Shown piece by piece: positions 5,242 to 22,266 of a DNA stretch of 57,795 bases. The position numbers and the translations under genes were made by a program. Location: NCBI GenBank assembly GCA_028875655.1, contig JAPPCX010000097.1, forward strand, positions 1 to 57,795. Reading direction: 5' to 3'. How positions within the stretch are numbered: the first letter of the stretch is position 1; the number at the start of each line of letters is the position of its first letter. The notes under the pieces were generated by a model. That model searched no databases. It was given only the letters and a program-made list of their open reading frames with translations, and was not told where the DNA came from. Source of the DNA: Chloroflexota bacterium. Its GTDB lineage: Bacteria > Chloroflexota > Dehalococcoidia > Lucifugimonadales > UBA3495.

Positions 5242-6294
5242 TCACGGGTTGGCAATGATCGTGCCGGCCACGCCGGCGGTAACCCGGCCAACAACGGCGG
5301 CGCAGGGCGCTCCCTCTTCACGCAAAGCGGCGATCAGGTCATCCGCTTTGGACGACGGGACCGACATGAGCAGTCCGCCGGAGGTCTGCGCGTCGCAGAG
5401 CAGCATGCGGTCGTTATCGGTGAGGTCGGCGTGCCAGTTGACCACGTCGTTGACGCTGCCGACGTTGCGGTGCGTGCCGCCGGGAGCTACGCCTCGTTCA
5501 AGCAGATCGCGCGTCCCCGGCAGCACGGGCACTGCGGACAAATTGACCTCGGCCGAAACGCCACTGCCCTTCACCATGCTCTTGAGGTGGCCGAGCAGTC
5601 CGAAGCCGGTGATGTCGGTGGCGGCGTTGACGCCGACGCGCTGCATCGCCTGGGAAGCCGGACGGTTTAAAGCGGCCATATTGTCCACGGCGCCGGCCAG
5701 CACGTCGGCATCCACCACGCCCTGCTTGCCGGCGGTGGTGATGATGCCGGTGCCAATGGGTTTGCTCAGTACCAACACATCGCCGGACTGGGCGTTGGCG
5801 TTGCTGACCTGCTTGCCGGGCTCCACAACGCCGATGACCGACAGGCCGTACTTGGGCTCGGGATCGTCCACGGTGTGGCCGCCGACGATGAGACACTCGG
5901 CCTCAGCCGCCTTGGCGTAACCGCCCTGGAGGGTCTTGCCCAGGATTTCCTTGTCCAGAGACGCCGGGAATCCGACTACATTCAGGGCGATCAGGGGCTT
6001 GCCGCCCATGGCGTACACGTCGGACAGGGAGTTAGCGGCGGCGATGGCGCCGAACTCGTAGGGGTCGTCCGTAATGGGCGGGAAGAAGTCCACCGTCACG
6101 ATGAGCGCGGTATCGTCGTTGAGACGGTACACTGCGGCATCATCGCCTGTCTCGGCGCCGACCAGCAGGTCGGGGTGGCTCAGCAGCGGAACATAACTCA
6201 GGACCTGACCCAGGTCCTCAAGGCTCAGCTTGGCCGCTCAACCCGCGCAGTGGGAGAGCTCGGTTAGGCGGATGGGTAGTTCAGTCTGGGTCAT
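5242..6294 (-). CDS. selD: Selenophosphate synthetase SelD, itself a selenoprotein
   Basis: Makes selenophosphate from selenide and ATP, the selenium donor for Sec-tRNA. Read as one gene of 350 aa with UGA at codon 19 (6240-6238) decoded as Sec. The N-terminus then reads HCAGUAAKLS, where Sec occupies the catalytic Cys/Sec position and is followed by the conserved Lys. The rest has GDDAAVY, GGHTVDD, TDITGFGLLGHL and DAQTSGGLL, all SelD signatures. If UGA were a stop, translation would have to begin at 6132 and the catalytic loop would be lost. A SECIS-like hairpin follows the UGA. The gene starts 11 nt after the restriction-enzyme gene. Confidence 0.94.
6200..6218 (-). promoter_or_regulatory. 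bSECIS element of selD
   Basis: On the minus strand, AGGACCT (6218-6212) pairs perfectly with AGGTCCT (6206-6200) around the loop GGGTC. The stem starts 20 nt after the UGA and the GGU-containing loop at +27, inside the window where SelB reads bacterial SECIS hairpins. Confidence 0.85.
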
Positions 6295-19901: not shown

Positions 19902-20975
19902 CTAACCCGGAATTTCGATTTTCTCGGTGACCACCCGGGTAACGCCCCAGCCGGCCAGCCAGGCGGAGTGGCGGCCATCGCCTCCGGCGACCACGATCAC
20001 GATGTCGTCGGCCTGAGGGGCAATAGGGACCATGGTGTCGGGTTTGCTGTCGTCGATCCAGGCCGGGTAGTTCCGATTGCCCCAGTGTCCCAGCCCGGAC
20101 AACTCGGAGATGGACATGCGGGCGTTGGCGTAGATGTACTCGCGAACATCCTTCTTGCTGAGGCCGTCGGCGGCGATTTCAGCGGCGTGTTCCGGGCTGA
20201 TCACCAGCGTAACCTGAGCCCCGGTGCCGATCTGGTAATAGTTGGAAAACCCCGTGGCACGGGTCGCCTGCACCAGGGTGTTCAGCACCTCGATGCCCCG
20301 GGAGACGGTAGTTTCCATAATCGGGTAGAAGGCGCGGATGGCGTGCAGCGTGATCATGCTGTCATCCGGGTCGTAGCCGAGTTCTACATGGCGCGGCTCC
20401 CAGGGGCTGCGGGATTCATTCTCCGCAAAGCAGAACGAGTAGCGTCCCGGCATGGCCAGGGTAGCCTTATCCATGTCGCCGATGATCAGCCCGGCGACGT
20501 TGCGGACGAACAGGCGCAGCGCCCGGCCGATGGTGGCGTTGGCGCGGTAACCGGGGCCGAACGCGCCGGAATCGCCGTTGATGCCCAGCCGCTCTGCGAT
20601 AGGTCCGTTAACGATGACCACCGGAGCAGCGCCGCCGGTAGTAGCCTGGCAGCCGGCCAGGTTGAAGGGCCTTTGCAACGCGGCTTTGACACAGGCCACC
20701 ACCACGGGGAAGTACTCCGGTCGGCAGCCGGCCATCACCGCGTTTACGGCGACTTTCTCGATGGATACCTCGGCGTTGGATGGCTGCGCCACGCCGAGGG
20801 ACAGGGACGGGTCTTCACCCCACGGGCCCAGCATACGGCGCACGGCGTCCTCGGTGGCGGGCACGACGGGCATACCGTCGGTCCAGCCCTGCTCTTCGTA
20901 ATAGTCCTGGATGGCGTCGTAGGCGTCGGGAATGTCGATGCGGCTGGAGCTGAGCGCTGGGGTGTTGGTGGACAT
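19902..20975 (-). CDS. Conserved protein of unknown function in the UGSC selenoprotein cluster
   Basis: 357 aa. I recall similar unnamed proteins but can give no function. Visible features: an N-terminal DYYEEQGWTDGMPVVPAT segment, then EKVAVNAVMAGCRPEYFPVV, NGPIAERLGINGDSGAFGPG and RANATIGRALRLFVRNVAG, and SFCFAENESRSPWEP. Cys84, Cys95, Cys109 and Cys182 lie in or next to these conserved-looking segments and could be redox or metal residues. There is no signal peptide or membrane segment. ATG 20975 is chosen because the next gene upstream ends at 20986. It is the last gene of a three-gene run that begins with a selenoprotein. Confidence 0.8.
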   Translation of the reverse strand: MSTNTPALSSSRIDIPDAYDAIQDYYEEQGWTDGMPVVPATEDAVRRMLGPWGEDPSLSLGVAQPSNAEVSIEKVAVNAVMAGCRPEYFPVVVACVKAALQRPFNLAGCQATTGGAAPVVIVNGPIAERLGINGDSGAFGPGYRANATIGRALRLFVRNVAGLIIGDMDKATLAMPGRYSFCFAENESRSPWEPRHVELGYDPDDSMITLHAIRAFYPIMETTVSRGIEVLNTLVQATRATGFSNYYQIGTGAQVTLVISPEHAAEIAADGLSKKDVREYIYANARMSISELSGLGHWGNRNYPAWIDDSKPDTMVPIAPQADDIVIVVAGGDGRHSAWLAGWGVTRVVTEKIEIPG

Positions 20976-21729: not shown

Positions 21730-22266
21730 CTAATCGCTGGTGAGCATTTCGGCGATTTGGCCGGCATATTCGTGGGCCATCTGCCGGACCTCGGGGATGG
21801 AGCGGGGGGCCAGCGGGCTGGGCAAGGCCAGGATCTGGACGGTGGGCATGCCCAGGGACGAGGCGCGCGCGTGGGCGGCCCGGGTGAAACTCTCGGTGAT
21901 GACGCTCACGGAGGGAACGCCGCGGCTCTCGGTAACTACTGTGTCGTGGAGACCCCACGCCGTGCAGCTCCCTCAATCCGCGATTCCGTGCACCACGGCG
22001 TCGCACTGGGCCACCAACTCGTCGATGGTTTCGTCGGCACAAGGGGCGCTGAAGCTGAACTTGCGCAGGTACAGCACCTTTTCGACGGCGTATTCCTCTT
22101 CCAGAATCGCCTGCAATTCCTGCAGGAAATTATCGGAGTGGTACTTGCGGTTTTCCAGCAGGCCGATGGTCTTTCCGGCCAGGCCGGGCAACCGACCGGC
22201 GGCGGCGCGCTCGGCAGTTTTCTGCTCCGGGCGCGGGTCGAGAATCTGGATTGTCGCTGTGGTCAT
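21730..22266 (-). CDS. UGSC family selenoprotein
   Basis: 178 aa when the in-frame UGA at 21975-21973 (codon 98) is read as Sec. The Sec region reads HGIADUGSCTAWGLHD, so Sec98 and Cys101 form the UGSC motif that names the family. Before it lie GLAGKTIGLLENRKYHSDNF and DELVAQCDAVV; after it VPSVSVITESFTRAAHA and a helical C-terminus ending at a TAG. Both parts are in one frame, keep the same coding character and join without gap, which argues against a pseudogene. A SECIS-like hairpin follows the UGA. U-x-x-C suggests thiol/selenol redox chemistry, but the reaction is unknown. It is the first gene of its run. Confidence 0.9.
21939..21967 (-). promoter_or_regulatory. bSECIS element of the UGSC gene
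   Basis: On the minus strand, CGTGG (21959-21955) pairs with CCACG (21949-21945) around the loop GGTCT. An outer CTG/CAG helix closes the structure at 21967 and 21939. The apical loop lies 19-23 nt after the UGA and carries GGU, as SelB-recognised bacterial SECIS loops do. Confidence 0.78.

Follow-up and report, generated by a model that had tools for sequence, protein, structure and literature searches.

GrdB and PrdB are the selenium subunits of glycine/betaine/sarcosine and D-proline reductases, and to our knowledge the UGSC proteins differ from them in being found largely in organisms that are not known for amino-acid (Stickland) fermentation. In the case of glycine reductase, trxB is part of the grd cluster (PMC2897892). 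The UGSC-containing protein, with its UxxC motif, appears in the GOS selenoproteome of 2008 with 255 selenoprotein sequences, and that paper presumes a Trx-like fold and records a fusion to a second domain, 'Unknown_1' (PMC2398784). According to a 2026 review, UGSC is among the families whose biological functions are still largely uncharacterised (PMC13188914). Our literature search returned no paper with the phrase 'UGSC family' and none with both SAR202 and selenoprotein.

We report a UGSC gene on a 57,795-nucleotide contig of a Chloroflexota bacterium (the window, i.e. the whole stretch analysed). The family has been known since 2008 and is represented by the models PF24696 and NF041046, and hence the window gene is one more member; it shares with the GOS family the motif, the Sec position, the occurrence of Cys-form relatives and the fusion to a second domain, and differs from the description in that paper in that its predicted fold is not thioredoxin-like (PMC2398784). 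What is new is the predicted five-stranded beta-alpha fold, the GrdB/PrdB-like profile, an unnamed partner protein, and neighbourhoods with trxB and carboxylate-transporter genes. An obligate partner gene, thioredoxin-reductase neighbours and a GrdB-like profile were not found described for UGSC in the accessible text of the 2008 paper (PMC2398784).

The gene (Table 1) starts at an ATG (22266-22264, minus strand) with a GGAGG ribosome-binding sequence 5' of it; codon 98, at 21973-21975, is the sole in-frame TGA within the 178 codons, and the next in-frame stop past it is the TAG at 21730-21732. A reading made from the letters of the window alone (the sequence-only reading) had joined two minus-strand frames through this single UGA, and the sequence confirms the join. 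It had also warned that gene callers would lose the C-terminal half: the mechanical ORF list holds a 97-aa ORF ahead of the TGA, corresponding to the first half of the protein, and a family member on an Acidovorax plasmid is indeed annotated as a 97-aa hypothetical protein cut at its UGA. The UGSC motif occupies codons 98-101, and the window copy reads U-x-x-C-x-x-W, with Trp where many relatives carry a third Cys (UxxCxxC; present in about half of the aligned family). Searched against both UGSC models, the joined 178-aa protein scored 133.9 bits with NF041046 (cutoff 125) and 171.2 bits with PF24696 (cutoff 25), versus 46.3 and 73.9 bits for the 97-aa fragment, whose match ends at residue 97. 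By these profile scores, above both curated cutoffs, the joined protein is a member of the UGSC family, as had been proposed.

Table 1. Features of the window discussed in the text (positions on the window; all on the minus strand).
Feature	Position	Strand	Remarks
SelD (selenide, water dikinase)	5242..6294	-	TIGR00476 383.9 bits (cutoff 125), TGA read as Sec; makes the selenium donor
Partner protein, 357 aa	19902..20975	-	near-invariant Cys codons 20724-20726 and 20430-20432
Exo_endo_phos family protein, 241 aa	20986..21711	-	PF03372, E 1.5e-10; between UGSC and partner
UGSC family selenoprotein CDS	21730..22266	-	178 codons + TAG stop; PF24696 171.2 bits, NF041046 133.9 bits; AF2 model pLDDT 92.9
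SECIS-like hairpin CGUGG-GGUCU-CCACG	21945..21959	-	16-30 nt past the U of UGA; pairing and covariation
Cys101 codon, C of U-G-S-C	21964-21966	-	invariant in 43 sequences of the Sec-form set and 42 Cys-form sequences
UGA codon 98, read as Sec	21973..21975	-	TGA kept in 30/30 orthologues listed with loci; Cys in 41 other loci; full Sec machinery
28-base repeat (CGTCATTCCCGCNAAAGCGGGAATCCAG)	4518, 22289, 34887, 49576, 50309, 51168	-	one copy just upstream of the UGSC gene

An 80-codon stretch free of stops, as found after the TGA, has a chance of about 12% at this GC; the open frame therefore proves little and the weight falls on comparative evidence. The host genome (3.45 Mb, 97% complete) has tRNA-Sec (SelC), SelB, SelA and SelD. 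Homologues that end at the UGA, or a loss of conservation past it, were the observations named beforehand as speaking against selenocysteine, and we found neither: in all 30 orthologues listed with loci (47-98% protein identity) the TGA is kept and the frame runs through it. Differences past the TGA among 28 of these are distributed over the codon positions as 322/250/790, which is coding-like, and the share of non-synonymous differences is smaller past the TGA than ahead of it. Moreover, homologues with Cys at codon 98, the check that had been suggested, do occur in other groups: when 84,980 species genomes were searched with a pattern that demands a Cys codon, 41 loci had Cys at the Sec position, from Pseudomonadota, Actinomycetota, Bacteroidota and others.

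Directly 3' of the UGA, as expected for a SECIS, we found a hairpin with a five-pair stem and a GGUCU apical loop that contains the G/GU of such loops; no SECIS appeared in the Rfam listing for the window. All five pairs of the stem can form in 42 of the 43 distinct Sec genes versus 11 of 38 Cys genes. Two of these pairs connect third codon positions, and they form in 100% of the Sec genes versus 63% and 50% of the Cys genes; pair 20-26 shows a compensatory change, being G-C in the window gene's subfamily and C-G in the other. Codon usage accounts for part of the difference between the two sets, since the Cys genes belong to other taxa. Still, genes that have lost their SECIS are expected to relax just these pairs, and judged by pairing and covariation the hairpin is a SECIS-like element. 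These comparisons together make it almost certain that codon 98 is decoded as Sec. A genuine stop at this UGA, or an error of sequencing, with the downstream frame a relic, is extremely improbable: all that favours it is the meaning of TGA as a stop in table 11, and it would have to accommodate a UGA kept in 30 relatives with coding constraint past it, Cys in 41 other loci at the same position, hairpin constraint confined to UGA-bearing genes, and a complete Sec machinery in the genome.

The SelD gene in the window has an in-frame UGA of its own (6238-6240, SHCAGU), and naive gene calling would consequently truncate this enzyme, which makes selenophosphate, near its N-terminus.

The AlphaFold2 model of UGSC (43 sequences; pLDDT 92.9, pTM 0.87) has five alternating strands and helices (E33-38 H44-58 E63-68 H78-87 E90-96 H99-114 E119-124 H125-137 E144-148 H157-176). 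Residue 98 is placed between strand 90-96 (strand 3) and helix 99-114, and Cys101 one turn further. The fold as modelled is five-stranded beta-alpha and lacks thioredoxin topology, and this prediction speaks against the thioredoxin-like fold proposed in 2008. Foldseek and VIA-align searches with the model gave generic Rossmann/flavodoxin-like folds only, many of them near-tied (Z 9-12), so we name no specific structural relative; GrdB was absent among the matches listed. Profiles of UGSC and of its partner gave nothing convincing against PDB chains. The idea that UGSC is a thioredoxin-like thiol/selenol oxidoreductase (a peroxidase or disulfide reductase) in redox defence, as proposed in 2008, agrees with the U-x-x-C motif, and the TrxB/TrxA genes beside some Cys forms (see below) would also fit a peroxidase. 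We nevertheless consider it unlikely, given the confidently predicted five-stranded alternating model without Trx topology, the lack of a thioredoxin-family Pfam match among those listed for the 43 UGSC members, and an obligate partner and transporter context unlike those of a general peroxidase.

The UGSC motif region, UGSCSxC...E..GIP...ICT...HPL, resembles the Sec end of GrdB, UGTCNRCGAT...E.AGIP...HPLGNP; as in GrdB/PrdB, U-G-x-C stands in register, with stretches of E-x-x-G-I-P and HPL coming after it. For hhalign the templates were GrdB/PrdB-like proteins of the same phylum, read through their UGA. UGSC aligned with the whole set at a probability of 91.7% (score 49.6), with GrdB alone at 95.4%, and at 95.9% (score 62.0) when Cys forms were added on the UGSC side, in each case with U and C in register. 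Column-shuffled templates scored at most 20.6, or at most 22.9 with the motif block kept, and the reversed template 18.8. With the UGSC motif masked the alignment fell to 48% and a score of 34.7, a run in which template columns were also masked, but not the motif, leaving only the UGSC-side mask on target; the UGSC-side mask alone gave 34.1. The families listed for the 43 UGSC members at E up to 10 did not include PF07355 (GRDB). This model stops just before the Sec, a possible reason for the missing Pfam link between UGSC and GrdB. The profile comparisons suggest that UGSC and the C-terminal Sec domain of GrdB/PrdB are domains of one kind, in the sense of distant homology and not of membership.

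Unlike GrdB/PrdB, UGSC has no PF07355 match and is much shorter than full-length GrdB, the window copy (U-x-x-C-x-x-W) lacks the UxxCxxC of GrdB/PrdB, and its partner is a different protein; a GrdE/PrdA-type pyruvoyl subunit (PF09338) had no match in this genome. Without a PF07355 match and a GrdE-type subunit the exact chemistry of glycine reductase cannot be assumed. Two partial PF07355 matches do exist elsewhere in the same genome (L111 and L112; G000 contigs C68 and C106), again without a PF09338 match, and these represent PrdB/GrdB-like proteins without their usual partner.

The partner of UGSC, a protein of approximately 350 residues, matched no Pfam or NCBIfam family. Partner and UGSC occur in the same 38 of 50 genomes in nearly equal copy numbers (8 and 8 in this genome), and the partner gene is adjacent and on the same strand in 41 of 41 Cys-form loci. 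All eight UGSC copies of the present genome adjoin a partner gene, with the window copy one gene apart, and on contig C47 a paralogue has both fused in one frame that is read through a UGA. Co-occurrence, adjacency and fusion thus show, at the level of genes and genomes, that the two work together, and they may well form a complex. In the window the Exo_endo_phos gene separates them; UGSC and partner lie too close for such a gene in several other genera, so that it is probably a later insertion and its product probably not part of the UGSC system. Two Cys residues of the partner, Cys85 and Cys183 (in the numbering of A2, which begins one codon 5' of the ATG), are near-invariant whether the system is of the Sec or the Cys form (79/79 aligned and 78/80, respectively). 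The U-x-x-C pair had been taken from the sequence as a redox site; we retain the redox role and give up the stand-alone pair, which becomes part of a two-protein system.

The partner model is confident (pLDDT 90.8) but gave weak matches, to class I fumarase and to chorismate-mutase-like proteins, and we assign it no fold. Its Foldseek match to the class I fumarase alpha domain (PF05681) had an E-value of 3.2e-4 over most of the partner, a weak likeness that is unaccompanied by profile similarity (0.3%); with a TM-score of 0.27 and a VIA Z of 4.2 at 5.6 A, kinship with class I fumarase was rejected. A GrdE-like pyruvoyl protein was likewise discarded, there being no profile similarity to GrdE.

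In several relatives trxB adjoins the UGSC genes, an arrangement shared with the grd cluster (PMC2897892). The order trxB-trxA-partner-UGSC is seen on an Arthrobacter plasmid and in a Nocardioidaceae MAG, and partner-UGSC-trxB in Chelatococcus and on a Roseovarius plasmid, there with a TRAP transporter and a CoA transferase. On the Variovorax SRS16 plasmid trxB, TctC and SDR genes lie upstream of the pair, and a V. boronicumulans plasmid carries a TrxB-type oxidoreductase, TctC and a fused UGSC-partner; in Bradyrhizobium trxB, a Na+:dicarboxylate symporter, partner and UGSC follow in a row on one strand. TrxB-type genes are also near the pair in Yinghuangia. Among genome contigs, 9 of 41 loci, in at least five lineages, have a TrxB-type protein with CxxC in the vicinity of the pair, with 9 in the 426 kb near the pair versus 0 in the outer 164 kb; taken alone this difference is modest, 4 of the 9 being from Methylobacterium and a background of 0.4 per Mb being assumed. 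No TrxB-type gene was found near the eight UGSC copies of this genome, and the thioredoxin link accordingly rests on relatives, mostly Cys forms. Gene order together with the domain relation to GrdB favours a thioredoxin-dependent reductase over a peroxidase.

TctC proteins are among the commoner neighbours of the pair. Since TctC, TRAP and Na+:dicarboxylate transporter genes adjoin it in other bacteria, the substrate is probably a small carboxylic acid. Near the seven other copies of this genome we found SDR, luciferase-like, ABC peptide transport and CoA transferase genes, too weak a common theme for a substrate to be named. In Arthrobacter (L192, 3678-4466) and in the haloarchaeon Natrinema (L189, 4497-4964) the pair has genes with the annotation phosphosulfolactate synthase nearby, which hint at a sulfonate; with two cases only, the Arthrobacter one below the NCBIfam cutoff, we leave this as a lead. 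Catabolic enzymes, transporters and TrxB as neighbours elsewhere also bear on whether the pair might instead be a redox or ligand sensor, or a carrier of a labile (possibly sulfur or selenium) compound, and not a catabolic enzyme. These neighbours make such a role quite improbable, even though it would suit the high number of paralogues in a genome (8 in this one, at most 13), the housekeeping genes around the window copy and the near-invariant cysteines of the partner.

The eight UGSC/partner pairs of this genome are found on contigs C76, C29, C43, C106, C110, C38 and C47 and in the window, and as many as 13 UGSC matches occur in the relative G031; for a selenoprotein this is a large expansion of paralogues. 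Plasmid copies with a UGA also exist. The IncP conjugative plasmid p2-T1 of Acidovorax sp. T1 (L190, 6911-9406) carries a UGA-bearing UGSC-partner fusion that adjoins IS1071 and IS91 elements, is annotated only as the 97-aa hypothetical protein referred to above, and continues in frame into an ISCR-type transposase-like end. On plasmid pFER4 of Paracoccus ferrooxidans (L191, 6998-13745) the UGA splits UGSC, which is annotated as two hypothetical proteins; the partner comes next, and selB lies a few genes further on. No tRNA-Sec was found in the 14 kb examined, and the arrangement is possibly a plasmid-borne selenoprotein cassette. Separately, the palindrome-containing 28-base repeat of Table 1 is present in the window in six near-identical copies, where none is expected by chance.

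On balance, we propose, with about even confidence, that UGSC, with its UGA read as Sec, is the Sec subunit of a thioredoxin-dependent, GrdB-like two-protein reductase that acts on a small carboxylate. The partner would hold the substrate, probably a small carboxylic acid, for attack by the selenolate of Sec98; Cys101 would then resolve the selenyl adduct to give a selenenylsulfide, and, by analogy with glycine reductase, thioredoxin and thioredoxin reductase may regenerate the enzyme. More tentatively, the pair could represent an unrecognised class of thioredoxin-dependent selenoenzymes, in which a GrdB-type Sec domain works with an unrelated substrate-holding subunit in place of the pyruvoyl subunit, and of which, in this lineage, some ten paralogues per genome would serve different carboxylates.

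With 255 sequences in GOS (PMC2398784), UGSC ranks with the most common selenoprotein families of aquatic metagenomes. For this uncharacterised family the partner, the GrdB-like Sec domain and the trxB neighbours provide a concrete, testable proposal of function, and its genetics and biochemistry can be approached without selenium through the Cys-form pairs of Methylobacterium, Bradyrhizobium, Arthrobacter and Variovorax, which are culturable.
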